A DNA stretch of 64,000 nucleotides from Pomacea canaliculata (lineage: Eukaryota; Mollusca; Gastropoda; Architaenioglossa; Ampullariidae). Under the pieces are notes generated by a model. That model had not been told where the DNA came from and searched no databases. It saw nothing but the letters and a program-made list of their open reading frames with translations. The stretch is from assembly GCF_003073045.1 (NCBI RefSeq), contig NC_037598.1, forward strand, positions 10,471,543 through 10,535,542, in the 5' to 3' direction. The stretch's first letter is position 1; every line of letters begins with the position of its first letter. This document shows positions 22,801 to 64,000 of this stretch, in pieces. The position numbers and the translations under genes are program-made.

Positions 22801-25800
22801 CTCATCAAACACATGTTTGCATCTACACAGCTGCAGAAAACAAAATGTCGAATGTGTTGTCAAATAAAGAAAATAGTGTTCCTTGTATTTATAGTTAGTA
22901 ACTGTTTAGAATTAATCTGCTAATTGCGAGAGCATAAAATGTTTTGTCGAGTACATTCACCTACCTGACTGCACTCAGGACCGTACCAGCCAAGTGGGCA
23001 GGCTGGAAGTAAAATACAGTATCACATTAATAAGCTCAAAACAAAAATCTTACGAGTGATTCTTATGTAAAGGTGGTGTAGCTATAGTGCTCAAAGTTGC
23101 ATTATGCAGCTTTACATTTCAGTTTTCACTATGTCAAATTTTGGCCTTGTCCGATCTCGATAATCAAACGCAGAACTGCTCTTAATAAACAATAGAATGA
23201 TAAAACAGTATACATGTAACTGACATACATATTTAGTGTTTTATGAACGTTTTAAGTAACTTAACTAATTACTTTTGTTTATCCTAATATATATATAAAG
23301 ATCAATAGCCATGGTTGTTGGGAGTAAGTAATATTGCGAGTTTTTTTTTTTTTAACAGACATCGTATATTGGTAGGTATTTTCTTTCTTCAAATCTCTAA
23401 ATGCACGATTTTGTAAGTTGTAAACTAAAGCACATAGAAGCAAAAGCTGATTTCTTACTTTAGTGGAAACAATCAGCTGTCTTTATAAGCTAGCTGAGAA
23501 GAAGACTTCATTACCATATCGTAGGAAACTGCACTAGCTATACATATTCTATTTGTTTACGTAGAACCACAGAAAACAAACTTACTTTCATTGCAGTGAG
23601 ATCCCTCATATCCATCCTTACAGCCCTGTGAACAAACTCCTGTCACACTGTTACACGTGTCCGGACTTTTACACTGACCGCAGGACTGGCACAGAGAGAC
23701 ATCATTGGAGGTCACGTGAGTACACTAGAGTCATGTGACTAGTGTCCATGTTATTAAAACTGAGATTTGAGTAGAGGTCCCGTGTTTACCTAAGACACGT
23801 TTAAACTACAACATTTATAATTTATTCATACATACACACCTAATGAATATCTATATAAGATTACTTAAAGTACTGTTCTATTGATTTATACTCGTTACCT
23901 CACACTACTGTTTATGATATTAATATTGGTATTAACTGCAGTGTGGTAAGCTGTTATCTGCTGAAGACAGAAGACCAATGAACGAAGAGGTTTCAGTCTC
24001 GTACCTGGTTACACGAGGTACCATGGTAACCAGCAGGACACGCTGGAAAATAAACAGCAGCAATGTTGCAAGTCTCAACAAAAGTCGGGATAACTATAAA
24101 CAATAAATAAGTATAATTAATTAAAAAAACATGTGCTGTAAGACATAATTTGCTTTTGATACTTGCGATAAATTGTTCAATACTATTTTTAAAAATGCAA
24201 ATATTTTGTCTTTCAAAGCTTCCCGAAGTGTACCTCTTGTAGAAGTAAAGGATATTTATTATCATGCTTATGTGCCTTAGTTAATTAAAAAAAAATGAAA
24301 GCTACAAAAGTAAATAAATCAAAATTAAATTATATATTTATATATATCTTATAAACCTATAAATAAAAACCGCATCACTGGAATGCTATAGAAATAAATA
24401 AAAGTGATAAAATAATCTCACGTGTGTTGCAGTGTTCAGTCGTATAGCCAGCCATACAGCCGTCCGGACACACTCCTGTAACAGGGTCACAGTGTGTGTC
24501 CTCGCTACAATGGCCACAAGTCAAGTTGCAGTCAGGACCATGGAAACTTTGTGAACATCCTTGTGTGGACAGGTGAATAAAGTAGTTTATATTACAGAGC
24601 TGTGTTGGATTTTAAATTATATTTGTGTTTATTATTTCATTGGCAGATATAATCCATCGTGTAACAGCTACCTTACTAATAACTGTTAAACTTGTTTTTG
24701 AATATTTTCTTAGAAGCAAGGATCTATAAATTCATTTCGTTTTACACCGTCAACTGTGTCTTTAAGCACACTAAGTAGAATATGTGACTATACAGAGCAT
24801 GATTTTGTTAGTTATAACTTGTTTCCGTGAAAAATAATTTAAGAACCCATAACTTCACAAGGACATAGAGATATTCTGTGGAACTAAACATGCGTTTATA
24901 AAAGGTAAAATCTGACTACAAGTGAATATGTAGTGGAAGATAATCACTGCACTTAAAGCTCAGGGTTATGAAGACAGACAATGAACTCCCAATACTCGAG
25001 AGGTAAACAACTAACCCTCGTCACACCTGCTCCCTTGCCACCCAGCTGTACAGCCGTGAAGACAAACCTTGGTTTCTACATCACAAGACACGTTTGTGCA
25101 GCTCAGACACTCAAGACCTGTATCCTTGTGCCTCTCATAGACAGTAAAGTAAACTGGAAACTGGGAGAGATACATAAAGTTATCATATATAACCAAAACA
25201 ATGTTACCTCTCAAAATTAAAATCAGTGAGTCACGGCAGGCTTTACTAGTATAACAAATTCTGTAATGTAACAAGTTTCACTAAAGAAAGAAAGAATTAT
25301 TACAAGAGGAATAGTAGAATTTTATTATTTTTGCTGGATTAAATAATCTACTAAGTGATTAAAATCAGGTGCTGTTGCTTATGAGTAAATATAGAGTATT
25401 ATTTTATTGTATGAACATAGATGCTGGTATAGATGTGTATGAATAAATGGAAGTAAGCTTGATACTAATGTCCCCATACATGTACTTCACTTGATGTTTG
25501 ATGCAAGGTGTACACTTTGATGTTTGTTAAGCTGATTTACATTACATCCCATCTCCAGTAGTTTTCTGTGCATCGGTTTTCACACAGGATTTCATTCTTG
25601 AAGACACGAAGACATGTTTTCTTATACAGTTACGCATCAGTGCAGCTGATTAACAGTTTAATTATCAGTCTTGAAAACATGACTGACTGGGGAAAAAACT
25701 GACAATAAACTAAACACTTGGCATGATTCTGTTTGAAAGTAATTGCCACATGAAGTGGCAATCTTACATGTAGTAACTTCAATAAACGAGTATTTGTCTT

Positions 25801-26238
25801 TCGTCAGAATAAATTGAAATTCTTACCTGCCATACCCAGACACAAGCTTAGAAGCAGTATAACAAAAAAGTAAATTGCGATGAGTTTCCTAGTATTCTCG
25901 CTCTTTACTTTCGTTTTCGTCCTCTGTATCAAATCTGCCATCTTTGTCCTGGCTGCTTGCACTGTGGGCACCAGCTTCCTTTTCACACTTTCTATTTTAG
26001 GTTTCAGCTTTTCTTTTGCTCCTCGCAGTGCAGACAATAATTTTGTGTTCCATAGTTTTGTCTTGGTCCCGTGTACTGCAACCACAACCTCTGCTTCTTT
26101 CTGTTTATTTAATGACAAAGCAGTGACGTTGCACTCTTCCTCGCCGTTCTCATCACACCTTTCATCGTCGTTCACATCGCACCCTTCATCTTCATCGTCT
26201 TCGATGTTGATGTTGCTCTCTTGGAGTTTTCTACTCAT
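19865..26238 (-). CDS. G2: type II membrane protein with six EGF modules, C-terminal anchor exon missing
   Basis: Exon 1 (25827-26238) gives a long tail of about 115 residues: first acidic (DDEDEGCDVNDDERCDENG), then lysine-rich and probably helical (KTKLWNTKLL, KPKIESVKRKL), then the membrane segment LIAIYFFVILLLSLCLGMAG. Exon 2 (25016-25153) is the half-module. Exon 3 (24422-24559) is a complete 46-residue module without its usual intron. Pairs follow: 24005-24042/23586-23685, 22965-23002/22728-22830 (one extra codon), 22217-22254/21768-21867, 21181-21218/20686-20785 and 20300-20337. The final exon ends near 19946 and holds a degenerate half (SGCNPMTRDCDYGFYPD), then runs through a would-be donor into stop 19865. 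All joins are in phase. The paralogues' hydrophobic tail is not found, so only the N-terminal segment would anchor it. Extracellular recognition is inferred from the family. Confidence 0.85.
21031..21053. repeat. TTTA tetranucleotide repeat
   Basis: Short perfect TTTA array inside an intron of G2. Confidence 0.9.
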
Positions 26239-26387
26239 TGTTCTGCAGTTCTACACCCGTGCAATGCCAGTATTCTCCAAGACTGACAGTGAATGTTATT
26301 TTGCGTCCAGCACAGCTCCTCCGAGTGCTAATTTATTCAAAGGTGATGTCATCACTGGAAGCATAGTTCAACGGTGTTTTCCGTTGG

Positions 26388-26397
26388 CTATATATAG
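26388..26397 (-). promoter_or_regulatory. TATA box of G2
   Basis: CTATATATAG on the minus strand lies about 150 bases before the G2 ATG. It is followed by CCAACGGAAAACACCG, a block shared with G3 (CCAGCGGGAAAACACGA) and in part with G5. Confidence 0.75.
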
Positions 26398-27567: not shown

Positions 27568-30500
27568 TCATATAAACCAGACTGTAAGGATGGTAATAGA
27601 GGCAGCAGCCACGCAGCCGGTCAGAAAGATTCTCGCTGAAGCTGAGGTACCTGCAGCCAAAAAAAAATGCAAAGTATGTATTCAATATGAGACTACAGAC
27701 ATAATACTGATGCTTTAACATTTTACAGGGTAATAGCACTTGGTCAAGTTGTGTCATCTTTTTGCTCATCACTCATTTCATTCCATGAGCCTTTGCTTAT
27801 ACCATCAACTAGCAAGAAAAGATTATTGGCAACTTCAAAGACAGGATTACTGGGAATAAAAGCGATAGCTTTTAATTATAGAGAACTTCAAAGACAACTT
27901 GCTTTTACCTGCATTATTTTGACCATCGTGGCCATAGGGGCAACCTCCTGTCTCAGGATCACAAACTCTATGTTTGCAGAGATTGCATGTCTTCCAGAGA
28001 CAATTGTTTAGGAAAAACAGAAATGAAAATAATAAACATATGCATGCGTATGTATATTGTAAAACACTTCTACTCCTTCTAGTCATAATGGCAAAAACAA
28101 AAGGAGTAATGACAAACAATTAATTATCTATGGCAGCGTATAGAAGAAGACAAGATTAGATAATCTTAACGAACAAATGTAGACATTGCTGTATAGACCT
28201 TTTGTATTAAAAATTAAGACTACCGAACGACTAAACCTTTACTAAGCTGTCATACCTCATTTTATTTCATGAAATATGCTCTTTAAATACATAAAGATGT
28301 AGTTAAAAAATTATTAAAATACCATAAGGCAGTTAGGACCGTATGTACCACCGTAACAGCCTGCAACAAAGAAACAGTCATTTTACTGACCAGAAATATT
28401 CAAACACATATTTTGAAGACAGTTGGTATAAACAGTTAATCTAACTATAATAGTGATGTCAATTAATTTTTATGGTTTCTGCTTTGTATATAATTTTAGA
28501 TAAACTATTTTCCGAGTGAATGTAGTGTCCGAGTAACAGCCCTGTAAGTTGTATTCAAAGCTGATGAATTTTTAATTCTTAAAAAGTCCTCGGTGAGTTC
28601 ATGATGGATCATGATCATGTTGTGTTGTGGTTCTACATCATGTCATGGACTGTAAGACTGACAAAGCTTTAATGCCATTCACTCTGTCCATGCCTGTAGC
28701 CCTAATCTCCCAAAACTTCTTATTTTTTTGTAGAAAACAGACAAATTTGCAATGAACTTACTTTGTTTACAATCTGATTGTTGATATCCGCTGTCACAGC
28801 CGCCTTGGCATCTTCCTGTAACCTGATCGCATGCCCTTCCATATATGCATTTACCACATTTCTGGAGAATAGAATTTTATATAGATACTGTATAGATGTA
28901 AAAAAAACACCACTATATATTTAGCCGATTTAACTGTCCAGATTTATTTGCAAAACACAGTTAACATACCTGTCTGCAATCTTGACCATAGCTACCATCT
29001 GAGCACACTGAAAATAAAAATATGAAAACATGCCTTTTGTCAGTTCGCTTTAGATAGGTCTTTGCTACCTCTACTTATGTTGGAATTGTATCGACTGACA
29101 CCACCCTACAACCCATTTTAAGGCGTCTTTGTTTCCATAAGTAGATACAATTTTATTGTTAAAAGAAAATTGTTCATTTTATGATTAAAAGCTACTTTTC
29201 ATTTTTAAAAGTTAATAAAATATATTTTTGTATTTCAGCACACTAGAGAATCGTCCTTCTCAAACATTGACAAGCGTAACATTTGTACGGGGAACCAAGA
29301 TGTACTTTTCATCGTAGAATAAAGACAAAGAATAACGAAACAGCATAACAGACTTACGTTTAATGCAATATGGTTGCTGGTATCCATCAGCACAGCCGTT
29401 TGGACATGTTCCTGTCACATGATCACATATATTCCCGAAATTGCATTGCCCACATGTCTGGAGAGAACAATGAACGATACATAATGCCAAATAAATTAAT
29501 CATATTTTTATTAATTTAACTTCCATAATGTACTTTGAGATAAAACGTAACCCAGTACAGATTCACGTACCTCTCTGCAATCCTGACCATAGTGACCATG
29601 TGGGCATGCTGAAAATAAAAACATTCTGTCCAGGTGAGTTCAAGGGACAAATAAGCTGCCGAGGCCTGCTAAAGCTGGTATTGTACCTACACCACCATAA
29701 AAATCATTAAAACGCTTCTCATGCTTCATATTTTTTTTCTATATTTTGCTGAGTTTATCTTAGAAATACTGATAGCAGCCATTTTTGTCTAAGTCAAAAA
29801 AATGAAAAAAATATTGGACCTTTCGGAAATAAAAACAGATGATTCTTTATAATGCTTTTTTGAAATGAAGCTAGATATAGATCAAGTTAAAACAATTGTT
29901 TCTCGTAAAAAAAAGTCTATTTCTAAGGCATATCTTCACTATTCGTATACAGATATTGAATTTAGGAAAGGAGTACTTTAGCTAGCTCTAGACTCTTGAT
30001 TTTAAACCGAACGTAAAAAAAAATATATATCTCCTCATCGAACAACACACAAAAACAAAGAATTAACAAGGAAGCTTACGTTCATTACAAAGTTGTGTTC
30101 GATATCCATTGTCACAACCATATGGACATCTTCCTGTCACGTGGTCACATGCATATCCGAATTTGCATTTACCACATGGCTGCAGAAAAGCAAAGTAAAA
30201 AGTCAGAAAAAATGGAATCTTCTATTTTTACTGATGTAGTTGAACAAGTCACCTGTTGTTCCTGTGTTCAGAAACGTCTACAGTATGAATAATACAGTCT
30301 ACAGTACAAAGTACATTATCTATATATCAAGATAGAATTAATGAAACTGTAGGCGTAAAACCTTTTCATTTTACATTTGTTATCTTTTACATGTATATCA
30401 TGCAACTGTATCTTAAAAATATACAAATTATAGCTCATCACCATAACAACACGCACGTGGTTATAACAATTATCAGTTAATTGCATCTCATGAGTTTTTG

Positions 30501-42500: not shown

Positions 42501-45231
42501 ATTGTATATTTCTTAGTGAAAATGATGAATCAAACGTGTGCGTACTTTCTTTACAAAGTGATGTTGTATACCCGTCGTCACAGCCATGTTGACAACTTCC
42601 TGTCACGTGGTCACATACATCTCCTGGTTTGCATTTACCACATGGCTGAAGAAAACAAAATGTCGAATGTGATATCAAGTAAAGCCAAGAATTTTCTCTG
42701 AGTTACAAATCATTCACTATTTCGATATAGGAAACGTGTCGTCTGTGTTATAATTGTTAAATTTTTAGAATCTCCATAAATAATATTCTGTGCCTAGAAC
42801 ATTCTCTTACCTGTTTGCACTCAGGACCATAAGAGGCAGGTGGACATGCTGGAAGTAAAGTACAGTATCATACTGAACAGAGAGCTTTTCACTGGTTCTT
42901 CTGTAAAGGTGGTGTAAATAAACTGCTCAAAACTGAATTATACAGCTTTACTTTTCATTTGTCACTATTTTTCTAAACGTTACCCATGTCCGGTCTAGAG
43001 AGAATAAAGCGCATCATTTGTAATAATAAACAATAGAATAATAAAAATAATATACATATTGTGATTATATTGTCTTAACACATGTTTTGAGTTCTTAATT
43101 AAATATGGTTGTTGACCCTAAGTAGATATTTATATATTAATAGGTGGATGTAAGTATTACTTATGTTTAACAGACATCGTAGATTTGTAGCTATTTTTCT
43201 TTCTTGTCATCTCTGCATTCACGATTTTGTAAGTTGTAAAAAAGGTTATAAAAACAAATGCTGATTTCTTACTTGAGTGGAAACAATCAGCTGTGTTTAT
43301 AAGGTACCTGACAAGACGACTTCCTTACTGTATCGTGAGAAAATGCAGTAGCTATACATATATATTCTATTTGTTTATATAGAACCACACAAAACAAACT
43401 TACTTTCATTGCAGTGAGATCCCTCATATCCATCCTTACAGCCCTGTGAACAAACTCCTGTCACACTGTTACAAGTGTCCGGACTTTGACACTCACCGCA
43501 TGACTGGCACAGAGAGACATCATTGGAGGTCACGTGAGTATATTAGAGTCATGTGACTAGTGTCCATGTTATTAAACTAAAAACATTTCAGTAAAGGTCA
43601 TTTCATCTTAGACACATTTAAAACGATAAGGACAAAGAAACAAATGTATAATACAGTTATTGATAATTTATTCATAAATACTTATTCATGAATATTTATG
43701 CATATGAATTTGTATGTTAAAGATTAAATTAAGTACTGTTGAATTGATAAACACTCATGATGTCACTAAAGTGAACGGTCTTAACATTATATTGAAATGG
43801 ATTAAGTGCCATGCCCTTCCTGTTGTTATCTGCTGAGGACAGGGTGATCAGTGAACAAAGGTTAGAACTTTGATGTTTTAGTCTCGTACCTGGTTACACG
43901 ACATTCCATAGTAGCCGGCAGGACACGCTGAAAATAAACAGCAGCAATGTTACAACAATAATTATATTATGAGAATAATTATAAACAATAAACGATAAAA
44001 TTTATTCACAAAACACATGATGTAAAACATAATTTGTATTTCGATCCTTGACATAAAATTTTGAATACTGTTCTTAAAAGTGTGAATATATTTTTTCTTT
44101 CAAAGCGTTCTGAAGTGTACCTCTTGTAGTAAAAGAGATTCCTTATCGTGCTTATTTGTCTTAGTTTATTGACAGTTGAAAAATCCAAGCTAGAAAATAA
44201 AAATCAAAGTAACTTATATATAAACAATATTTTCAAAACAAAATAATAAAAACCGCATCATCGGAATATTATAGAAAGGAATAAAAGTGATAAAATAATC
44301 TCACGTGTGTTGCAGTGTTCAGTCCTATAGCCAGCCATACAGCCGTCCGGACACACTCCTTTAACAGGGTCACAGTGTGTGTCCTCGCTACACTGGCCAC
44401 AAGTCAGATTGCAGTCAGGACCATGGAAACCTTGTAAACATCCTTGTGTGGACAGGTGAATAAAGTAGTTTTATACTACAGAGTTGAGTTGGATATAATC
44501 CATCATGTAACAACTATCTTTGATTTTAATAACTGTTAAACAAGCTTGTCATTTTCAAAGCTTTTGGGAAGTAAATATTAATAAATATACTTTGTTTTAC
44601 ACTGTACACTGTCTCTTCAAGCTAAGATTAAGAAGACTTACTATCAACTTTGAACACGTGAGAGGTAAACAACTTACCCTCGTCACACCTGCTCCCTTGC
44701 CACCCAGCTGTACAGCCGTGAAGACAAACCTTGCTTTCTACATCACAAGACGCGTTTCTGCAGTTCACACACTCAAGACCTGTATCCTTGTGTTTGTTTG
44801 TACTGGTGTAAACTAGAAACGTGACAAATACACAATATTATTATGTTTTATTGAAAAATAATAACCTTCCAAACTTTAACTAGTAAGTCGTGACAGGCTT
44901 TATATAACAATTATGTAATGCAACAGGATTACCAATGTCACAAGTTATTAATGTGATTTACTAGAAGCTTCTGTGAACAGTTATGTCTTGTCAAAAAAAT
45001 AATAAAGATCTTACCTGCGATACCAATGCACAAGCTTAGAAGCAGTAGAACAGAGCAAATTACGATGAGTTTCCTAATATTGACACTCTTTACTTTCGTT
45101 TTCGTCCTCAAAGCAGTGTCGCTGCACTCTTCCTCGCTGTTCTCATCACAGCCTTTATCGTCGTCGACATCATACCCTTCATCTTTATCGTCGTCGATGT
45201 TGATGCTGCTCAGAAGGCGTTGTCTACTCAT
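27568..45231 (-). CDS. G3: giant EGF-array type II membrane protein, 42 exons
   Basis: Exon 1 (45015-45231) encodes an acidic tail (DDDKDEGYDVDDDKGCDEN), a basic patch and the segment LIVICSVLLLLSLCIGIAG. Next are the half-module 44678-44812 and the unsplit module 44305-44442. Nineteen 38/100-bp pairs follow; first bases on the plus strand are 43890/43404, 42811/42546, 42096/41826, 41431/41153, 40649/39878, 39494/39215, 39032/38773, 38319/38050, 37659/37381, 36893/36116, 35818/35408, 34578/34306, 33921/33642, 33139/32370, 31520/31113, 30814/30080, 29571/29358, 28970/28762 and 28323/27909 (82 bp). The last exon, ending at 27650, gives TSASARIFLTGC then a hydrophobic end TILTVWFI. Every pair I measured keeps its length, so the frame looks open: about 1,060 residues. 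Modules read CPPGSYGPEC..SCGNCKPGDVCDHVTGNCPNGC.DGY...LC, eight cysteines each. SCARF/MEGF-like; ligand unknown. Confidence 0.9.
30525..31460. repeat. Segmental duplicate, copy 1 (partner 35528-36470)
   Basis: This segment, with exons 30814-30851 and 31113-31212, matches 35528-36470 almost base for base at an offset of about 5,004 (exons 35818 and 36116). Introns match as well as exons, so the duplication is recent. Edges are approximate. Confidence 0.85.
31610..32067. mobile_element. Fold-back MITE with repeated internal motif
   Basis: The two ends are inverted copies built from repeats of CACTTCATCCCC and CACTTAATCCCCAGA, joined by a short AT-rich middle. TTCCAT is present on both sides (31604-31609, 32068-32073), a likely target duplication. 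The same intron position at 34005, 37740, 39580 and 41515 has a single uninterrupted GGTTCCATATG, which defines the empty site. No coding capacity. The family is not known to me. Confidence 0.88.
34677..35044. mobile_element. hAT-like MITE, copy A
   Basis: The element runs from CAGGGTTGTCCATGGG to CCTATGGACAACACTG, with exact 8-bp duplications TATAAAGG at 34669-34676 and 35045-35052. Its ends hold runs of CCCATCCCGT and a palindromic CCCATGGGA block. Copies of this intron at 38400 and 42185 lack it. It has no open frame of note. Confidence 0.9.
39460..42660. repeat. Segmental duplicate, copy 2 (partner about 31490-35520)
   Basis: Second copy of the four-module block. It lacks both MITE insertions, so it serves as the empty-site reference for them. 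Confidence 0.85.
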
Positions 45232-45373
45232 CGTTTTGCGTTTACAACCTCTTACTATGCACGTATTCTCTAAGATGGCGGTAAACGTTTTGCTTCCCGT
45301 GCAGCTGCAGCAAGTGGTGATGATATACGTGTGATTCTGTCACTAGCTGGGAGCATCGTGTTTTCCCGCTGGC

Positions 45374-45384
45374 GATATATATAG
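45374..45384 (-). promoter_or_regulatory. TATA box of G3
   Basis: CTATATATATC on the minus strand lies about 145 bases upstream of the G3 ATG and is followed by GCCAGCGGGAAAACACGA, closely matching the G2 promoter. Confidence 0.75.
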
Positions 45385-46754: not shown

Positions 46755-49700
46755 TCAACAAATCCAGATAGCACTGCATGCAGCGACTGCCACACAGGCA
46801 ACTACAATAGAGCCTGACACAATGATACCCGCGTCCTTTGTACCTGTAACCAAGGTAGGATCTGCGTTAAACATATTACAGACCATCAAAACATGCTTCA
46901 ACTGCCCGCAACAAATCTGAGTTCATTTAAATAGTAATGGCTCAGTTGCCTTTGTAATTTTTCGACTGCTGACTCCCTAAAACATCACAAAGTAAATATT
47001 GAGTAACTTTCTGTCTTTCTATCATCATCTACCGGATTTCAATTACCTTTACCTAAAGTGGGAACTATAAAGACAACTTACAATAGTCGGTGTTATAACC
47101 ATCCTCGCAGCCATCGGGACAGACTCCTGTTACATAATTACCAGCAGCTCCATCTTTGCAGTGGCCGCACACCTAATGCATGTCAGTATTTTCAGTAAAT
47201 AGCAAGAAAATAATACATTATACATTTAAGCAGCAGTTATAGTTTGGAAATGGAAAGAAAGTAGAAATGAAAAGGCCACTAAACCATTGAAAATAACTGG
47301 AAACAATTAATAAGAATTATTAGGTGGAAAGGCAAGGAGAGAACTTTGAGAAGTAAGAATTTCTACCCAACTAAAATTCTTGTGTGTATTGAAGCCTTTG
47401 GGCTACATTTTTTAACAGTAAAGACAAGCAAATGGCTGTCAAACAAAGCTGTAACAAAACCAATGATTAGAATACCTGTGAGCAGCCAGAACCATATGTA
47501 CCGGGATAACAAGCTGCAATAAGAAAAAAATATTTATCAATGATCTCTCCTGAAAAGCTGAGTTTATCCCAAACTATTGATAATGCAAAACGTTCGTGAG
47601 CAATGTAAAATACATGATTGTTGTCCAATCTGTGCAAAATCGTGGATTTAATTATGCAAATGTGCCTTTAGTCCAATAATACCATCAATAATTCAAATCA
47701 TGAAATTATTTATATTGTTTCTATTCGTTTTCCTCTTTAAACAATTTAGAAAAGTCTCACAAACTTAAATGTACCTGTGTTACAGCGGTCAGTCTGATAC
47801 CCATCCTCACACCCGAATGGACATATTCCAGAGATGTAGTTACAAGTACCCATGTTTTTGCAATGTCCACATTCCTGACAAAGAACTTCAGTCTTAAGCT
47901 ATCAGAGTGTTAAACTAATTTTCAAGCATACTAAAAACAATCACCAGACCGACACGAAAATTTATAATTTTCAATGCAAGACAAATAGGAGCATTAGGAA
48001 TACTGTGATAACAAAGTCAAGATTAGATAGTGGCATTAAAAAGAAATGTTGTTGCAATTATTTCCCTCCTCCTCTGGGTGTTTCTGTTTTGTTGTTCTGT
48101 CAGCAGGTAAAGGCTATATCTAGTCTTGTGAACAGTTTAATTATGGGAGAAATTTTACTAGTCGAAAATGAGGTACTTGCTGCCTGACAAGCATTTTCAT
48201 GGTGTACAAAACACTAGACACATCACCTTGAGACATTCACTAAGTGACACATGATAAATACCTTGCTGCAATCGGGGCCATATGAGCCGGCAAAGCATTC
48301 TGCAAGAGAGAAAATATCTGTATAAGTTTTCAACATTACATTTCATCTAAACTCCACACTGGCTTCAAACGGCACCAACAAGTGAAAAAGATAATCAGTT
48401 GCTCCTCTAGGAATAACAGTTTAAAGTGTTATTTTAAAATTAAATCACTCAAACAAAGCTATCCGTTGAAATAACATACTTTTCGTAAATTAAATTCGTG
48501 TAGCTGTAAAATGTTACGCACTAGTAGCAATTGTTTTACTTTAGCAGGAAGTCATTCTAAATTTTAGAAGCTAATTGAATCCTCTGAAGAATATCTCAAT
48601 TACAAAAGCATGATAACATGATAACATCGTACCTGTAGTAGCTATTATTTATCAACATCAGAAGAGCAGTTGAATTTCTAAGGAATCTTACCTTCATTAC
48701 AATACACTTGTCGATACCCATCTGCACAGCCGTATGGACATCTTCCTGTCACGTGGTCGCAAGTGTCTCCCCATTTGCAATTTCCACATGGCTGGCGAGA
48801 AGGAACACAATCTATATTCTAAATCACGTAGTTTAGCAATAATTAAACTGTTTGAACTTATCTACATAATTACATCAGAAAAAAGAAATATCATACATTC
48901 TTGTACCTGTTTGCACTCTGAACCATAGCTACCAGGTGGACACTCTGAAAATACACACATACCACCTTGGTGAGTTCAACACACAAAAATCTGTAAAACG
49001 TTTAACACCTTTATCCACTCAAATGACAAATGACTAACTTAATACCAATGGAAATTTATAAATTGGGGAGTAGAAAAAGTTAAAAGTTTTGAATCAGTGT
49101 CAGACTAATAAGCAGAACCGTCACACCAGATTCCTAACACATACAGATGAATGAAATGGCAAGGGAGGTAAGCAACTTGCCTTCCGTGCATTTGCTCCCC
49201 TGCCACCCATCGTTGCAGCCTTGGAGGCAAAGCTTGGTTTGAGCATCGCAAGACTGGTTCCTGCAGTTTTCACACTCAAGACCTTCCTGGCGACCTTGCT
49301 TAGGCCACATGTAGACTGGACAGACAATGTCACTGACTTAAAATGTCTTGCTCCTAATCACAACTATATTTTATTACATTGTGAATCAGGTTGAGGGCTT
49401 TAGGTTTAGGCAGAACAATACAGAAGAGCACAACAACAAAGACAATGCATACATGTTTGTACTCAAGTGAAGAAAGGGAATTTAATATGCGTGAACTAAG
49501 CATTAAATTTTAGAAAAACTGACAAAAGAAATACGGAAATGAATTTTCTTTTATGCAAGAGAGACAGTCTCCCTCTCAAATATGAATCATGTTGAAGGGC
49601 TGTTTATTAACACCCAAGACAGAACACTGAATATCTGCCCGTTATGTGAATTGCTATTCCACTTTGTTGATTGCAAATATTGAAACCCAAGTATCAGCAG

Positions 49701-50415
49701 ACTATCCTTACCTTTATCTACAAAGAGTAGTTACATGTAGAAAATTGTTTTCTTTATTATGCATTTAAGGTAGTAACTTCTCTAAACGATCATTTGTTTG
49801 TGGAGTTTATTTTGTCAAAAACAAAAAACAAAGTTCCTAGACAGCGGTGAAGAGTTTCCCAGTATTGTCGCTGCTTACTTTCGTTTTCGTTCTATGTATT
49901 AATATTTTTGTATTTTTAATAACAAAGCAGTCCCGCTGCAATCTTCATCGTTGTTCTCATCACACAGTTCTCTATTAATCAGACCCACACCCGTACAATG
50001 CCAGTCTTCCCCAAGACTGGGAAACACGCCATAATGATTTTTGACCTTCTGATGCATGCGCATAAGCGTATATTTTTATTTGTCATCACCTCATCACCAC
50101 TTATAAACGATCGTGAAAGACTTACCTTGAACACGTAATTAAAGAAAATATAGTGTTCTATTTTTCGTGATAGCAATCTTTGAAAACTGCGACATACCGA
50201 TAACAGGTAGGTTTAGTCAACACCTATTAACATTGTCATACAAAGAAGAAGATAAACTTACCTATCGTTGCAACGCATACTATCAACGCAGCAGCGAGAA
50301 GAGCAATAATGAATTTTTTGTTTACATGTGTTTTCGGAATTTGCTCAAACCTCGATGTTATTGTCGCTGCTTCCTCCCTTTCCGGCAGAAGCCCTGTTCT
50401 TTCTCCTACTGCCAT
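46755..50415 (-). CDS. G4: short EGF-array type II membrane protein with dileucine tail
   Basis: Nine exons: 50262-50415, 49181-49315, 48907-48944, 48692-48791, 48262-48299, 47775-47874, 47476-47513, 47082-47172 and 46755-46843. Exon 1 gives the tail MAVGERTGLLPEREEAAT and the segment FIIALLAAALIVCVATI. E5-x3-L9-L10 fits an acidic dileucine sorting signal. A half-module and three full modules follow. The last cysteine is completed across the final splice, then comes the hydrophobic end GIIVSGSIVVACVAVAACSA-IWIC. Joins are in phase and no stops are seen. Intron 2 on the coding strand begins GC rather than GT (AAG|GCAAGT), a known minor donor class. Module 3 has Gly where the fifth cysteine should be (AAGNYVTG). 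The first exon is unrelated to those of G2 and G3, and a relic of theirs lies in intron 1. Confidence 0.87.
49795..50070 (-). pseudogene. Relic first exon and leader of a G2/G3-type gene inside G4 intron 1
   Basis: Reading the minus strand, the segment matches G2 exon 1 and its leader in order: a block near 50000-50060 with ACGCCATAATG and CCTTCTGATGCATG, then ACACCCGTACAATGCCAGTCTT, then the acidic-tail region near 49930-49960, then CTTACTTTCGTTTTCG near 49875 before the membrane segment. It lacks a usable start and open frame, and the TATA part is deleted. It sits where the first exon of G4 would be expected if G4 had come from a G2/G3-like gene. Confidence 0.8.
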
Positions 50416-51074
50416 GGATTCACTGAGGTTCTGTCCGTTAAAACTTTGTTGCTTCTTTTATCGGATCTCTTCTCGCCCTCAGGTTTAATTAACATCGCAA
50501 TGCGCGCACACCCAGCTCCGAAGTTTCATCTCGCCGCGAGGCCACTTCGGGGTCATCAAAGGTCAGCCCAGCCTCTATGTGGAGCAAAGGTCGAGTCGTG
50601 TGTCAGGCAGCGGCTGCGCTAGCGGGTGAATCCACCCGTAAATGTAGAGACGACCCTCCACGCCTCTAATTCGCGTGGGCTCGCTAAAGATGGCTTCTGC
50701 ATACTTGATGCTGTATGATGCGGAGGGAAATCGCAGAAACAGAATATTTCGCGATCGGTATTTTTAAAGTTTACATTTAATAACGTTACAGCGTACACAA
50801 TTATCTGTGATACTCCATCTTAAAGAGCATTTTCAAAACATTTACGTGTTGTAGTTTTTTTTTTAAAAAAAATAAAGGTTTTGTTTACTGGCAGTAAAAT
50901 CAAATGAAAGATTGGAACTGTATGAACACATACGTCATTCCCCCCCCCCACTTCCATATCTTACGTTAGTACCAGTGACGTCAGACCTCAACGAGCAAGC
51001 GACACGCGACAATCACAAACTGTCGTTAGAACATTTCTACAGATACAGTCGATTGCGGCTGTTGGTTCTGCGAG
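50416..51074. other. Divergent promoter region between G4 and the PLAT gene
   Basis: About 660 bases separate the two start codons, which point away from each other. I see no clear TATA box for G4. The stretch from 50500 to 50700 is GC-richer than its surroundings and CpG-containing, and a run of C lies at 50940-50949. Shared regulation is possible but not shown. Confidence 0.4.
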
Positions 51075-52600
51075 ATGTGGCGTTTGGTCTGTCTGCTCCT
51101 GTTTCTTGGAGCTTTTGGTGTCATGGTAAGCGGTGGTTGTAATGTACATTAAGAATACACTTACAGTACACAAGCAGAAATATTTTTGGTCAGGAAAAAA
51201 ATGTGTGGGTATAAAAGATAAATAATGAACGTAAGACATTTTTAAATTTATTTAATTTTTTGTTGGAAGTTTATTGTGTTTACATCTTAGATACCTGATG
51301 CGGTTACACACTCCAATGTCTATATTACCCTCTATGTTAGGAGGGGAACGTCTGAAGCTATTCGCTTGAACATAAGTGGAACGACATGGAAAGAGGAACT
51401 TTTAACATATTCTCTGGTGTGTTTTTTTTTTCTAGGGTTCAAATTGGAGATTAAAACTTATACATCGGACAAAGCTGACGCAGGAACAGACTCCCGTATC
51501 TATATTACTCTCTTTGGAACTCTCGGATCTTCCGAAGAAATAGAATTAGATAATCACGAAAACAACTTTGAGAGAGGAAAGATTGACAGATTCTTTGTAT
51601 CAATGGACGACATTGGTGAAGTGTGCTCAGTGCGCATCAGGTCTGACGATAGTAAACTTGCTTCTGGCTGGCATCTCCAAAAGGTAAAATATAACTTTAA
51701 AACCATTTCTATGCAGTAAATGCTAATGAAAAGCTGAATTATTGTGCTTGGGTCAAATACTCAACTAATATAAATCTGTCAATAGCTCCATAGCATCTGG
51801 TTACTGTGCCACGTTCATGTTTTACAAATGTAAAAAGACTATTCGCTTTTAACATGATTGTACCGTGATAGTTTGAGCCGGCATGGCTCAAAAATAGAAC
51901 AATATTTTTCCAAGATTTATTTCATTTAAGTGGACACATTTCTTTTATCACAGGACAGCATTTAGATTAAACTGCGGTAGATATCTCAACTGATTACCAC
52001 GAACAACATTGTTTACTATACAGACTAAAATTGAATTGTTAAAATTTATTATACGGTACGTTTCATTTGTTAAGTTTAATATATTCATAACAAAGCATTA
52101 CACAAGCGAGAAGTCCCCTAAGGAATTTGCAGTTAAAGACTTAAATTCTTTGCCTAAAACTAATGGCATCAGGCAAGCAATATTTTCTATGACACCTGAC
52201 ACACGAACTGTTATTTTACCTGGTTATGACTTTAGTAATAGTACATCTTTTATGATAAAAGCAATTAAGTTCAATGTTTTGTATTAGCCTTTGCAAGAAA
52301 ATTTTGTCGTGGTTGTCCTTTTTGCAAATTTAAAGCTCAATGATACAGAAAAGAAAGTTCTCCGCGTGTCTGAAGACATTAAATGTCTTATTGCTTATGA
52401 TTCCTGAAGTGATTACACATTTGTCGCTAAGCTCGTATCTCCCATACATATACCACGTTTTTGTGCTTTTCTCCTACTCACAGATTTGGATTAAATCAAG
52501 ATCAGAAAACAATTTTTGGTGTAACTGCTGGTTATCAAAGGAGACTACATTACAGAGGGAACTCACCCCTGAATACAAATGCCACATGGCGAAGAAATAA
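51075..52600 (+). CDS. Small secreted PLAT/LH2-domain protein
   Basis: Exon 1 (51075-51125) is a signal peptide (MWRLVCLLLFLGAFGVM). Exon 2 (51291-51683) and exon 3 (52484-52600) join in phase 0, about 186 residues in all. The second half of exon 2 plus exon 3 is a PLAT domain: DKADAGTDSRIYITLFG, an FERGKIDRF turn, DIGEVCSVRIRSDD, SGWHLQK, then FWCNCWLSKE and REL at the end. PLAT folds bind lipids or protein partners, often with calcium. The first half of exon 2 reads like a second, clipped PLAT start (DAVTHSNVYITLYV...RGTSEAIRL), followed by a run (VCFFFLG) encoded by what looks like a polypyrimidine tract and CTAG acceptor. A shorter transcript starting exon 2 at 51436 would need a different exon 1 donor. 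It is the only plus-strand gene in the window. Confidence 0.75.
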
Positions 52601-54406: not shown

Positions 54407-57400
54407 TTACAAGAACCATCTTCTATTCACTATAAGAGCTGTCAAGCAGAAAGTTGCTATAGAGCCTGACACAATGACTCCAGCCTTACTCGTACCTGCA
54501 ACCGAGATAAAACTGCTTCTGTAAAATCTATTAATAAAATTATTACAAAACACTTTAAAGAACTTTAATCAAATTTGAGCTCACTGGGGTCTTTTTGTCG
54601 GCTTTTCTTTGTTTCTTCACCTTATTACATTTTTTGCTTAAAACATCACAAAGTAAATATCGATGGTAATCTTGTCTTAAGGTGTTGTCCTGCTGTTAAT
54701 ACTAACGGGAATTCACAAAGCCTTTACATTAACTGACAACTCTAAAGACTTACAAAAGTCGGGTTTGTATCCGTCCCGGCAACCATTGGGACACACTCCT
54801 GAAGCGGGATGACATGTCGATCCCACTTTGCAATGGCCGCACACCTAATACATAATAGTATTTTCGGATATATAGCAATGATGATGGTACACGTGTGTGT
54901 GAAAGTCTCAGGAAGTAATTATGAAAACAAAATGTAAAGATGTCTAAAGGACGGAAGGACATTCAATAAGAAATTTAGTCTCCTCTTAGTTTCAAACTGT
55001 ATACATTTGGAAACATCTACACTACACTTTGAAAAAGCGTAGATTGTATCTCTTTAAAGTTATCGCACTTATCATTAAGTTGTAATAAAGGTAAACAACA
55101 GAATACCTGTGAGCACCCAGGACCATATGTACCGGGAAAACAAGCTGCAAAGAGAAAAAAAATTATCTGCCATTGAACTGATCACAAATATATCGGAGTT
55201 AAGCTCGCAACAATATTTATACAAGAACGTTTCTTTAATTAACATTAAATTTCAATCACAATAAAAATAATTAAAATCGCATTTCATATAGATTATATTG
55301 CTTCAATTCATTTGCCATGTTAATCAAATTTGAAAAGCATTACAGATAACTGTACCTGTATTACAAAAGTCGGTCTGATACCCGTTCTCACACCCAAACG
55401 GACACTTTCCACTGACAATGTTACAGTAGCCATAGATTTGCAGTGTCCACATTCCTGATACAAAAAAACAACAATATAAAATTGTCACAGGTAATTCTTA
55501 AACGTACTCGGAAAATAGTTAGATAGAAATGACAATTTTAATTTCGAAATACAAGACAAATTGGAGCACCAACAAGATTGTGCCAACAAATTTAAGGTTG
55601 TAAAGTGGCATCATAAAGTTTTGTTGCTGCAAATTATTTCCCTAATCTCCCGTTGGTTGTTTTTTGCTAACATCTACAGGTTATGGGTATTCTCTTAAAA
55701 TTCTTGGACAAATTATGTCCAAAGCGAGAACTGAACGCACAGCCTGAGATGTGCAACCTGAAAATCGTTTTCCATGTCGCACTGTACGGTAAACAGTTTA
55801 CTAATTTTTTTTCTGATAACGAACGATGATAAGATCAGAATACCTTGCTGCAGCCTGGACCATATGAGCCTGCGGAGCATTCTGTAATCGAAAATATTAG
55901 GTCATAATAATCAACACTGCACCTTTACCCACACAATACTCTCACCCAGAAGAAAATTAAAAAGATACTAATTTTTCCATAAATAAGTGAAAGTTTAAAA
56001 CAACTCTGGCTTTGCAAGAAACGTAAGTTTATGTACCTGGAGAATGGTCTATATGTTGCACACATTCAGCAGTTACTTAATCTTCAAAAGGAGAAAAGTC
56101 ATTTAAAAATTTGCAAGTCTTAAAATGTTTACTTGAGGCCTGTTGAAAGTATCTAAATGCCACAGAAAAAAAACATTGGATGTTAATATTTATGCCTGAG
56201 TATCTCTTAACGTTTATTGAAATCACATTAGACAAAATGTCAATATTGCAACTGAGCTTACCTTGAAGACAAAACAATGGCCGATACCCATCTTCACACC
56301 CGTTTGGGCATCTTCCGGTCACCTTGTCGCAAACTTTTTCGCTTTTGCATTTACCACATGGCTGTTAAGAGGTAAATCATATATGTCACCAAACATACAA
56401 ATTAAAACAAATGAAAAACAAATCCATGCTAATGATTAAACTGTTCACATTAATCTACTGTGCCACGAAAAAAGAAAATCCAATGTCGTACGCCGTAGGT
56501 ACCTGCTTGCAATCCGGACCATATCTTCCATCAGGGCATACTGAAAATAAAAACATACTTTGTGAGTTAGCACGGAAAAAGTCTGCAAAAGTGCAGAAAC
56601 TCCTCTGTTGCTCTTTCTAAAATTTTTGTTCATTGTTGAGACTAAGAATTATGCATACAACCAACTCACATTCTTCGCTTATTGGTATCAAAATACATCA
56701 GAAAAATTGCCGTGAAATAAACAGGATGAGAATTTGTTTCGTTAATTTAAATGAAAGATACTGCAATACAAAGACTGACGCTAATAAATAGGTACTTAAT
56801 AATAAGTGATATACGACTTTTATTGCTCCTAAGATTAAAGCTGTGACATTTTATTTGTGTACCTTGTTCTTTAAATCAGACCATTATATACACGAGTAAG
56901 AAAAAAATACTCTTTTTAAAAACAAATTTGTCTTTTCAAGATTTATAGACTCACTTTCATCACAAAGAGGTCCTTCATAGCCCTCCTCACAGCCATTTAA
57001 ACAGAATCCTGTCACGCTCATGCACGTGGCCAGACCTTTACAGCGTCCACATTTCTAGTCAAGACATGTTGCCAGTTGTCATTTGAGATACAGAAGAACG
57101 TTACACTTCTATTTATCTACTCATACTCTATTGTTCGTTAATAAATTATCATGTCGTGACATAGAGATGTCATTATTTTCATTATATCCTGCCATTGTTA
57201 CAGAGGGATATTTTGTTTTTTAAAAAAAATCACTTGACGAATTGTCCATTACAGGAAGACCGTCATACCTGACCGCACGATGCTCCATAGAGACCGGCAG
57301 GACATGCTGAAATTTGATTACCAGATTGTTCAAAATAAAATAAATGGAATGAAATACAATCATTCCATAATTTACATACTGTGATGCATGATATGCACTT

Positions 57401-60366
57401 GTTGAATAATATCTTTAATTTGATATTCTTAAGCTTCAATTATTTGTGCTTTCAACATTTTCTGATGGGTACGTTTCAGACAAATATTGAAATCAGCCTT
57501 TGATCAATGGCTTTTGAAAAAAATTAAGTGCTCATAACACAGATGAACGTCTGTAAAAGAATTAAGAGATTTATTATATAAGGTCATAATCTTACTCATG
57601 TCGCATTGTTCTGTTGTATAGCCATCCATACAGCCCTCAGGACACTTGCCCTGTAACAGGGTCACAGTGTGTGCCCTCCCTACAATGGCCACAAGTCAAG
57701 TTGCATGCAGCGCCGTAGGAACCTGGTGAACAGCCTTTCGAGAGAAAAGAGATAATTACTATACAACAGCTTCGAAGAAGTACAACATTGTTTTTATCTA
57801 AATTAACTTTTTAATGGCTACTTTGTTATCAGACTCGTGCATTCCTTGCCTTTTTGTAGAAGCTTTTATTATATAAAACTTTGTCTCATATCTTTAAAAT
57901 AATAAATACAGAAACGCTTTCCTTCGACAGCTCAAAGAAGCATTTCTGTAGGTCTGAAATAAAGAAACTTACTTTCATTACAGCGAGGTCCCCGATAGCC
58001 GTTCTCACAACCGTCTAAGCAGACTCCAGTCATGGGGTTGCAAGTGGCCTGACTTTTACAGCGACCACATGACTAGTACAGAAACACGTGATCAGTGGTC
58101 ACGTGACTAGTACAGAAACACGTGATCAGAGGTCACGTGACTAAAACTTCCAGCGATGAAGAGGAATCAGCGTGTGCTCAATATGGCTAGTCATAGATTA
58201 TTTAGACTTACTATGCAAATATTTATAGGCTATAGCTACAGTTTTAGTAACATAAAATTAATTAGCAAATGTAAACACCATGCATACATATTTATAGTAC
58301 AAACACCTTATGCACTTCATCCGTTTAAAATTGGCTTTAAATAGAACGTGGAAGACAATGAGACTGTCGTGTATCTTTTTCATATTAGTAGGAACAAGTA
58401 TTTCTTAGTGGAAAGAACGGACCATGTATTAAAGACAGATATAGAGTATAGTTTTCTCTATTGTTCAATATCCTGGTTTCTGTGTCATTTTGTACAACTA
58501 TACGATAAACTTACCTGCGTACACGATGCTCCATATGAACCAAAAGGACATGCTGAAAAGTAAGCAGACACGCATACCGGTTTTTTAAAAACTCCAAAAA
58601 TATTTAAAAAGGTAATGAATAAAAAGATGTTCAGACCATAAAGCACATTCGTTCTCTTAAGAACAAGCTGATCTTTAACCTTTGAATATTAGCTGTAATC
58701 TGCCATATGCCTCCACTCTCATTATCCCCAGACACAGACACACACACAAAAAAAAACAAAAAAAAACGTGTGGTGAGCATCTTACCTTCCAAGCACTTGG
58801 TCCCTTGCCACCCAGCTGTACAGCCTTGAAGGCAAACCTTAGTCTGTCCATCACAAGAAGCGTTCATGCAGTTCAAACACTCGAAATCTTCATAGCGGCA
58901 TTTCAACGCATAGTAGATTGCTGGAAAAGGTAAACAAAGCCATAAAAATGTCACGGCATCAAACTATTCATATTGATATTGACTAATACCAAAAAAAACC
59001 TTCAAAAATATGTAGGTCAAAATCTTACACTGGTACCGTTACCTCAATGAAGCATTTTCCTAGGTTGGTTGCTTGGTTGGTTGGTTGGTTGGTTTGGTTT
59101 GGTTTGTTTGGTTAGTCGGGTTTTTGTTTTACCGATGTCATCTACCATAAATATTTCAGCATTTCATCGAAAATGGTAACACAAATACCTATGTGCGTAT
59201 ATGTGTGTGTGTGTGCGTGCGCGCGAACTCTTCAGAAATTTTCTGTCGTTCGGAGGGACGAAATATGCAGAAGGCGGGTTAGAACAGAGGAAGAGACGCC
59301 AGTTGGCAAAATTACAGGGTACTCGACACACACCTCAGTTCAGGCACATTGCCAAGACCGAACATCTCGCTGATAGTTGAAGCTGAGGGTGGAAAGTGCA
59401 CAGAAGATAAGAAGAGCAGCTCTGTGCTCAACACAGTTCCTTATTTCACCCATAGTTACATCTTTCGCTAAGCAGCAAGTCTTGACGAGGATGGCACCTG
59501 CCTGGGTGAATGTATGCTCTGCATTATGCTTGTGTACACTGGTTTGTCTGTGTAACCTTTGTAGACAAAACAGTCAAGGGTGAGGTTATTATCCGTCTAC
59601 ACTCTACACCAACCCCCTTTTCTCTAGTCAGTAGCAGTGCACTGTGAAAGATATTTTCTGTTCATCCTTGCCGCCATCTTGTTGAGTATGTGTGTTGCAG
59701 TAAGTGGAAATACGCAGACAACTCGACACGGCGGAGCACTGTGCTCGGTTCACAAGGTCTATGTTGACGAGACAGTGAACTCATAGTCTACCCGTGTCGG
59801 CGGTAGCTGTAACTGTGTGGCATACCCGAAAGACGACTCAATCAAACACAGAGAGGTAGAGAGTGAAGAAATTGAAGTGTGTATGTGTGACACCAAACCG
59901 GATGTGTTCAGATAGCGACTCTATGTGCGATACGGCTTATTTTTATAGCTTTTAGGAGAATTATACACTTTCGATTTCATTCTTATATGTTGGTAATGTG
60001 TTCGCCTTCATTTAAAAAAAAATGAATCATCATCATCATCACTGTATGATTATGTTCTGGTTATGTCTGGTTACTAATAGGGGTTGTGTGCAGTGTGTGG
60101 ATAAGTGGCTGAATGGGTACATGGAGGGTACAAATGAGCAAAATCACGAATGTAAGTGGCAAACTTACCTATTCCCACTGAGCATGCAGCGACGACAACA
60201 GCAGGGGCAACGACACAGGTCACCTTCATGTTTACTTTTTTCACTATTCCTAGTGAAGACGACCTTCTTGTCCTTGCTTTTTCCTCCCTCCGTCTCTACA
60301 TGTCCTCCTCTGAGTCTGTGCTCTCGGCAAACCGTTGTCGATGGTATCTCTGTCACTTTTTTCCAT
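54407..60366 (-). CDS. G5: EGF-array type II membrane gene with several one-base breaks
   Basis: Exons are 60169-60366, 58786-58920 (half-module), 58515-58552/57973-58072, 57596-57734 (unsplit module), 57269-57306/56955-57054, 56503-56540/56262-56361, 55844-55881/55356-55454, 55107-55144/54754-54844 and last exon 54407-54495. Exon 1 ends in a membrane segment (VTCVVAPAVVVAACSVG), but the frame from the best ATG (60366, MEKSDRDTIDNG) does not reach it. The exon is 198 bp where phase requires 199 or 196. An in-frame ATG at 60229 would leave almost no tail. The unsplit module has one extra base (139), and exon 55356 lacks one base (99). The last exon reads KAGVIVSGSIATFCLTALIV, close to G4. So it is either a pseudogene in progress or carries sequence errors; the module order resembles G2/G3 with one pair inserted. 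Confidence 0.7.
58071..58138. repeat. Two 34-bp direct repeats with CACGTG boxes
   Basis: Two copies (58071-58104, 58105-58138) differ at one position. Each holds CACGTG, TGATCA and GTCACGTG. They lie at the 3' end of a G5 intron, just before the 100-bp exon 57973-58072. Related single copies lie at the same intron position in G1 (near 10880) and in G2 and G3 (near 23710 and 43530). Confidence 0.85.
59063..59112. repeat. GGTT tetranucleotide repeat
   Basis: Imperfect GGTT/GGTTT array in G5 intron 1. A TG/CG run at 59202-59225 follows. Confidence 0.9.
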
Positions 60367-60485
60367 CCGGGCTTCCTTTCCCGTTAGAGTTAACTCTCTT
60401 CTTTGGGACTTGATCTTTCTCTCCTACTACGCTGCAGGCGATGAGTGGCTGGTTAACCAGTCGTTCGTTTGGGTTTCCCCGCTGG

Positions 60486-60495
60486 CTATATTTAG
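60486..60495 (-). promoter_or_regulatory. TATA box of G5
   Basis: CTAAATATAG on the minus strand lies about 120 bases upstream of the G5 ATG, followed by CCAGCGGGGAAACC, resembling the G2 and G3 promoters. Confidence 0.65.
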
Positions 60496-62694: not shown

Positions 62695-64000
62695 TCACAG
62701 AAACCAGAGGACACTGATTGCAAGGACTGTCAGACAGGCAGCTGCAGGAGAGCCCGACAGAGTGACTCCTGAGTTTTGTTTTGTGTACCTGCAAAACATA
62801 ATCATTGTTGAACATACTACAGAATACCACTGAACAGAATGTCATTCAACAAGTGTTAGTTCATTCACATTGTAATGCCCTCTTTTTTAATCACTTTACT
62901 TTGATATAAATTTTTCTTCAGCCAACTTAAAACAAACATCAGAAATACTGGTGAAACATCCTGCTTAGTTATTATCACTGACTGAATTTCCTACAGACAT
63001 GTAAGTAAGCTGGGAACTGTAAAGACAACTTACAATGGTCGTTGGTGTATCCAGCCTGGCAACCATTGGGACACACTCCTGTGACATGATCACAGGTAGT
63101 TCCCTGTTGCAATGGCCGCAAACCTGATACATGGTATTTTCCAAATAAATATCAACGATAATAATACATGTCTCCAAACTATAATTATGGACTACAAAGA
63201 CAAAGCTGTTTCAAACACCTGCAGCTAAAGCATAAATAATAAGAAAAACAATGAAAAAAAGAGAAAAATGGCCCCAGAAAAGCTCGAATCTTTGCCTTTA
63301 TCTAAAAAATACAATACTGAAATATCTGGACTACACTTTCCAAAAGTGAAGACAAGCAGACTGTCTTCTTGTTCTTCACTGTAACTACATCAACCATACA
63401 GCTATAACAAAGGTAAACATGAAAATACCTGTGTGCAACCAGGACCATACGCACCGGAACGACAGTCTGCAAAAAGAAAAAAAAATGTTTTGTCACTGAA
63501 CTGACCTGAAATACATGTGAGTTTAGCACAAGACAATGGTGGTACAAAAAAGTGAATCTATTGTCTTTAAAATTACAGACTTACTTAATTTGACAGGATT
63601 AGAACAGTTTACTCATATTTGAAACAGTTTTCTTGGTAAACCAATTTGTAAAACATCTGAAAGAGAAATTTACCTTCATTACATAAGTCGGACTGATATC
63701 CATCCTCACATCCGAAAGGGCAAAATCCAGTCAAGTAGTTACAAGTACCCATGTTTTTGCAGTGTCCACATGCCTGATGAGAAAAGCAGTGTTAAAGTGT
63801 TGCAGTTAATCATTACAAAGTACTGAGAAACACAAAAATGGAAAAGAAGGAGAATTTAAATTATAACAGGAGTAATGTATTAAAGTTTAGAAGAGTTGCA
63901 TATTAATGTTACTGTATTTTTTTCCCAACCAGGGCGATATCATAAGGACAAGTCCATACATGTAAAAGAGTGTATTCTGAGAGAAACTATGGGTGTCGGA
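62695..64000 (-). CDS. G6: 3' part of another EGF-array membrane gene, cut by the window edge
   Basis: Exons seen: 63674-63773 (100 bp, CGHCKNMGTCNYLTG), 63429-63466 (38 bp, CRSGAYGPGC), 63034-63123 and the last exon 62695-62788. The gene continues past the right edge, so exon 1 and earlier modules are not visible. The penultimate exon is 90 bp where G4 and G5 have 91; one base is missing before TACCTGTGATCATGTC, so the cysteine pattern shifts frame. The last exon also holds 17 rather than a multiple of three bases before the conserved GVTLSGSPAAACLTVL tail ending WFL. Two such faults suggest decay or sequence errors. Its closest relatives here by sequence are G4 and G5. Confidence 0.7.

Follow-up and report, generated by a model that had tools for sequence, protein, structure and literature searches.

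The question raised by this locus is whether a decayed first exon lying in an intron is the discarded exon of the gene that now holds it, or a copy that came from elsewhere. The evidence below indicates that this relic most likely came from neighbouring genes and is not the host gene's own discarded first exon.

The locus consists of cysteine-rich genes arrayed in tandem on the minus strand, in the window C9:10471543-10535542, which is the whole stretch of 64,000 nucleotides analysed here. Positions are those of the window unless C9 is given. The genome searched comprises 440 Mb in 24 contigs. No literature on this array was found among open-licence PMC papers. The genes in the window were numbered G1 to G5 in order of increasing coordinate. 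G6 starts at the right edge of the window, and G7, near-identical to G6, lies about 55 kb beyond it. Between G6 (C9:10535154-10545251) and G7 (C9:10592686-10600429), exon 1 is 99% identical and exon 2 differs at 1 of 136 positions. Their near-identity reflects either a recent duplicate or an assembly duplicate. A PLAT-domain gene (51291-51700, plus strand; Pfam E 1.7e-14) lies head to head with G4. Its first-exon stretch, 50945-51100, has seven more matching places in the array region, giving about 8 places in 193 kb.

Each first exon in the array codes for an N-terminal tail plus a hydrophobic segment; those of G2, G3, G4 and G6 end in phase 1. The first exon of G6 is clearly related to those of G2 (score reached in 0/1000 shuffles) and G3 (5/1000). 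Together with the comparisons of the G4 exon, this indicates a single homologous first exon across the family. G4 thus holds two versions of it, a working one with a G6-like intron start and a dead one of the G2/G3 type. The exons and the relic are as follows.

25827..26238, minus strand: coding part of G2 exon 1, the closest relative of the relic
45015..45231, minus strand: coding part of G3 exon 1, without the mid-tail segment retained by G2
50262..50415, minus strand: working exon 1 of G4, encoding a short tail with ERTGLL and then a transmembrane segment, with donor GTAAG and a phase 1 end
49181..49315, minus strand: G4 exon 2, the first cysteine-rich module, with a GC-AG donor
49754..50062, minus strand: the relic, a decayed G2/G3-type copy spanning upstream region, leader, exon 1 and the start of intron 1, identified by blastn, alignments and shuffles

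The exon at 50262-50415 opens a chain of 9 exons that stays in frame to a stop codon. Exon ends were placed manually according to reading frame and splice signals, and one donor is GC instead of GT. At 49175-49181 (minus strand) the donor of G4 exon 2 appears as GCAAGT, and that of the corresponding G3 exon is GTAAGT. The tail sequence ERTGLL is a candidate dileucine motif of the pattern [DE]xxxL[LI]. In the 260-aa G4 protein no Pfam EGF family was found at E <= 1; the protein is similar to solved EGF-like chains (6u11_A, E 3.3e-10; Tie2 chains, about 1e-5 to 4e-6).

G3, G4, G5 and G6 have a C-terminal hydrophobic stretch with almost nothing after it, which resembles GPI-anchor signals (window 46755-46843, 27571-27681 and 54410-54559, and on C9 just left of window 62698-62841). 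No clear case of such a stretch was seen for G1, G2 or G7. A combination of N-terminal signal-anchor and GPI-type C-terminal end in G3, G4, G5 and G6 would result in a tetherin-like topology.

Homology and decay of the relic

The relic is located in intron 1 of G4, with alignable limits at about 49754-50062. Four blocks in it were matched by blastn in the window.

49987..50019, minus strand: matches the G2 5' leader 26253-26285 (91%, 33 bases, E 2e-7)
49905..49965, minus strand: matches the G2 acidic-tail codons 26098-26158 (82%, 61 bases, E 8e-12) and the G3 acidic-tail codons 45109-45150 (88%, 42 bases, E 1e-9)
49849..49902, minus strand: matches the G2 pre-transmembrane codons (TKTKV...) 25879-25932 (85%, 54 bases, E 2e-12) and G3 45064-45108 (82%, 45 bases, E 2e-7)
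49770..49797, minus strand: matches the start of G2 intron 1, 25770-25797 (86%, E 3e-4)

The matches to G2 (three exon/leader blocks) and to G3 (two) are collinear and on one strand. Alignment of the relic with G2 and G3 gave scores of 85 and 89, respectively, and neither was reached in 200 dinucleotide-type shuffles. The corresponding numbers of shuffles equalling the score were 35/200 for G1, 106/200 for G5 and 2/200 for G6. The search of the whole 440-Mb genome with the relic returned the relic itself and two G2 pieces (E 1.7e-8 and 3.2e-8). Among the best candidates, which were scored, there was no match outside the array at E <= 0.001, and the G3 pieces missed this threshold. Both possible sources are thus in the same array, G2 at 24 kb and G3 at 5 kb. 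These results bear out the earlier note in two respects: it had taken 50262-50415 as the working exon 1 of G4, and it had seen a degraded copy of the G2/G3 leader and exon 1 between that exon and exon 2.

The relic has lost its signals. ATT stands in place of the start codon, the part that would hold the TATA motif is absent in the alignment, and the transmembrane segment and the splice donor are gone. Both tail blocks survive with a large gap between them. They are now in different frames, and each ends in a stop.

Coding constraint is lost as well. In the main alignment, counting only columns without a gap in the relic, G2 or G3, the changes unique to one sequence are split between coding and non-coding positions as 16:16 in the relic, 3:15 in G2 and 6:34 in G3 (relic against both others, Fisher p 0.001). 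The per-site coding/non-coding ratio is 1.33 (CI 0.67-2.67) for the relic, 0.27 (0.0-0.73) for G2 and 0.24 (0.07-0.46) for G3. Four other alignments gave 34:24, 35:24, 33:14 and 34:24 for the relic, in the same direction, with counts inflated by the forced alignment of the lost segment. The whole branch of the relic therefore looks unconstrained. Its coding part has changed as fast as its non-coding part, and nothing in it points to a long period of use. The relic is a dead, pseudogenised exon.

The relic holds upstream, leader, exon and intron sequences, and it is thus a DNA-level copy. A retrocopy is ruled out by the presence of intron 1 and upstream sequence. A cluster of variable first exons of the UGT1 or protocadherin kind is also disfavoured, as the second first exon of G4 has neither a start codon nor a donor.

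Affinity and age of the relic

In the 259 shared columns of the main alignment, there are 60 differences between the relic and G2, 82 between the relic and G3, and 68 between G2 and G3. The distance of the relic to G2 is thus close to that of G3 to G2. In the four other alignments it is somewhat larger (95, 96 or 95 of 294 and 71 of 260 for the relic, against 79 of 294 and 63 of 260 for G3), which speaks against a transfer. The relic retains both ends of the mid-tail segment that is present in G2 and missing in G3, which points to G2 or the G2/G3 ancestor as the donor. The tree of the relic, G2 and G3, which omits the poorly aligned G5, did not separate the possible branchings (AU test 0.37, 0.41 and 0.64), again a point against a transfer.

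Synonymous sites give a clearer contrast between the relic and the body of G4. The relic differs from G2 at 2 of 16.7 synonymous sites and from G3 at 2.5 of 16.2; these counts are small and come from short blocks, with 29 codons chosen because they could be aligned. G2 and G3 differ from each other at 1.5 of 16.5 sites in exon 1 and at 0 of 20, 2 of 27 and 2 of 19.3 in three other exons, a total of 5.5 of 82.8 over the four. In exon 2, G4 differs from G2 at 12 of 19.2 sites and from G3 at 12 of 18.5. The relic and the G4 body differ in this divergence (Fisher p 0.002 and 0.007, on rounded counts), which suggests that the relic split from the G2/G3 line long after the G4 body had. We conclude from these sequence comparisons that the relic probably derives from G2 or the G2/G3 ancestor, at about the time when G2 and G3 split and well after the body of G4 had separated.

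A test of relative age by exon 2 distance (ratio 1.04 for the relic, CI 0.86-1.28; 5.19 for exon 2, CI 2.94-14.17) was dropped in favour of the synonymous sites, because exon 2 of G2 and G3 may be homogenised, which would inflate the ratio. Homogenisation would fit the 0 of 20 synonymous differences in exon 2, against introns that differ by about 20-29%. Exon 2 of G2 (25000-25135) and that of G3 (44660-44795) nevertheless show several amino-acid differences, and the pattern hints at gene conversion or selection. Non-coding identity is also a poor clock and alone cannot date the relic, since the intron starts of G4 and G6 are 69% identical (111/160) while synonymous sites in exon 2 are near saturation.

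The 5' end of G4 and the origin of the relic

Three more features bear on the origin of the relic.

50096..50266, minus strand: the 3' tip of G4 exon 1 with its donor and the first part of intron 1, with homology to G6 C9:10544784-10544955
26381..26397, minus strand: TATA-type motif of G2, also present at G3 45366-45382 and G5 60479-60495
50518..50757, plus strand: piece of a dispersed repeat lying ahead of G4's working exon, with at least 39 other matches in the genome, 71-86% identical

The donor and the first ~165 bases of G4 intron 1 are homologous to those of G6 (and G7), beyond the window. The match to G6 consists of 47 bases at 81% (E 2.8e-7) and 60 bases at 73% (E 5e-4). The score of the comparison was reached in 0/200 shuffles for G6, and in 117 to 175 of 200 for G1, G2, G3 and G5. 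The working exon, at least in its 3' part, is thus an inherited exon of the family. The body of this exon is related to G6, G3 and G5 (0/200 shuffles each) and to G2 (1/200), with 83/200 for G1. Two results for this exon count against a transfer of the relic: its scores to G3 and G6 are equal (41 each), and the match between G4 and G6 is modest at the protein level (reached by 33/1000 shuffles). The pairwise intron and shuffle comparisons were made without G7, which was included in the exon matches, the alignment and the exon 2 tree.

The changeover from G6-type to G2/G3-type sequence in G4 intron 1 falls within about 50062-50096. No trace of a mechanism was found at the junction, which again weighs against a transfer, and no repeat either. 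The rest of the intron, about 49300-49760 (minus strand), has no relative in the introns 1 of G1, G2, G3, G5 and G6, and it was unique in the genome search. At E <= 0.05, intron 1 of neither G5 nor G6 contained a G2/G3-like piece. An Rfam scan of 49300-51200 gave two matches far below the gathering scores, taken as chance.

The G4 exons downstream of 48317 match G1, G5, G6 and G7, and no G2/G3 match to the 3' exons was found at E <= 0.01. The best blastn scores for exon 2 are to G7 (82%) and G6 (81%) over 116 bases, followed by G3 (77%) and G2 (74%) over 120 bases. In the exon 2 tree, G4 is placed with G6 and G7 weakly (bootstrap 31), a further point against a transfer; its 3' exons and intron 1 start point to a lineage other than G2/G3. 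By plain distance in exon 2, G5 is nearest to G4 (0.261). Exon 2 of G5 is nearer to G2 and G3 (dS 0.67 and 0.58) than to G4 (1.21), which is another point against a transfer.

The promoter of G4 differs from those of its relatives. Allowing up to 3 mismatches, the window contains the motif CTAAATATAGCCAGCGG at three places, those of G2, G3 and G5, against an expectation of 0.12. It is also visible at G6 and G7, and the same window search did not find it at G4 or G1. The sequence upstream of the G4 exon, 50416-50760, did not beat shuffles against the upstream sequences of G1, G2, G3, G5 and G6. The repeat fragment sits 102 bases ahead of the start codon of G4. Its number of matches is a lower bound, as the best 40 of 85 candidates were scored. 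Three of the 39 matches were aligned, and a reading frame starting near the end of the shared part was present in two of them. Pfam recognised no family in this reading frame, which may resemble Harbinger-type transposases. In G5 (60165-60430, minus strand), the TATA motif is kept, but the frame leading to the hydrophobic segment is interrupted upstream by two stops. The sole in-frame start (MKVTCVV...) would give almost no tail.

The promoter and the N-terminal end of the tail of G4 thus appear to have been replaced in a separate change, with the repeat fragment now at the expected place of the promoter. The earlier note had claimed that G4 changed both its promoter and its cytoplasmic domain through a new exon. 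The differences in promoter and N-terminal tail are confirmed by the missing TATA motif and the dissimilar upstream sequence, but the exon is not wholly new, having a G6-like donor.

Taken together, the relic is probably a partial 5' duplicate that was copied at the DNA level into intron 1 of G4 and died early. The copied stretch would have run from the upstream region through the leader and first exon into intron 1, in G2 or in the G2/G3 ancestor. The recipient would be G4, a gene of the G4-G7 kind with its own first exon already upstream. As first exons in the family end in one common splice phase, G4 might in principle have gained from the insert an additional first exon with a G2/G3-type tail, but early decay is what the sequence shows. 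We infer the direction of the transfer and its single step from the patterns above, and the exon would have been dead on arrival or soon after.

The earlier note had favoured a swap, in which the ancestor of G4 used a G2/G3-type promoter and exon 1 that died in place while an upstream exon took over. Such a swap is unlikely. The succession of working exon, relic and exon 2 along the strand agrees with it, the relic includes both flanks of the old exon, and the present promoter of G4 is without the TATA motif of its relatives. However, the working exon shares its donor and intron start with G6 and G7, the relic is too similar to G2 and G3 at synonymous sites relative to the G4 body, the 3' exons of G4 do not match G2/G3, and the relic shows no period of coding constraint. 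These four observations argue against the replacement of an ancestral G2/G3-type exon of G4 by a new one.

A gene fusion is rather improbable too. By unequal crossing-over or deletion, a G6-type promoter, exon 1 and intron start would have been put before a G2/G3-type 5' end. The downstream exon 1 would then be stranded in the fused intron, and G4 would have swapped its exon by capturing that of a sister. One event would set the G6-type exon and intron start directly before the G2/G3-type upstream region, as seen at the changeover. A body of the G2/G3 kind is then expected, yet the 3' exons are of the G1/G5/G6/G7 kind, so that a G4-type body would already have had to acquire a G2/G3-type 5' end. 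An exchange of bodies in the G2/G3 line may be considered as well.

That the relic is still in use, as a minor exon or an intronic regulatory element, is very improbable. Its non-coding changes are not above those of G2 (16 against 15 of 148 columns in the main alignment), but it has no start, TATA motif, transmembrane segment or donor, it contains in-frame stops, and its coding part is unconstrained. Chance similarity or a common repeat is refuted by the shuffles and by the genome search at E <= 0.001, with nothing found in its favour.

If the relic is a transplanted copy, an intermediate phase with two promoters can be imagined, doubtful as it is. G4 would have had its own and the transplanted first exon, putting either tail on the same ectodomain, and loss of the transplant, together with replacement of the TATA promoter by sequence beside the repeat fragment, would have fixed the short dileucine tail. 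The array would then be a natural record of the exchange of tails and promoters between sister receptors.

Comparison with known systems

The locus probably represents ordinary birth-and-death evolution with a twist: first exons, carrying promoter and cytoplasmic tail, would move within the array and then die. An intronic relic need not be ancestral to the gene that hosts it. The cysteine-rich ectodomain persists, but the tail varies: G2, G3, G6 and G7 retain it, G4 has an altered one, and G5 seems to have lost it. This pattern of variability may interest students of fast-evolving receptor families. The mechanism is already known in kind, and the array adds a readable example.

In Drosophila yakuba, partial tandem duplications shuffle 5' exons and regulatory sequence (PMC5460883). 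As would be the case here, 5' regulatory and exon sequence is carried from gene to gene by DNA-level tandem duplication, with chimeric structures as the result. The duplications in that species are polymorphic and come with RNA data. G4 presents a single decayed insert, fixed in the assembly, in the intron of a paralogue and known from DNA alone.

In Schistosoma japonicum, dispersed duplicates of a core promoter and a signal-sequence exon are described (PMC3434034). There, too, a module of promoter and first exon is copied to new surroundings. Those modules are genome-wide and linked to repeats, whereas the G4 relic is local and present in one copy, with no repeat found at its junction.

Clusters of the UGT1 type contain dead variable first exons, as pseudogenes and relics (PMC1885805). 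They resemble the array in having tandemly duplicated first exons with promoters, some decayed and others working. The first exons of UGT1 share one constant set of exons. In contrast, each gene of the array has its own body, and the dead exon lies in the intron of a paralogue.
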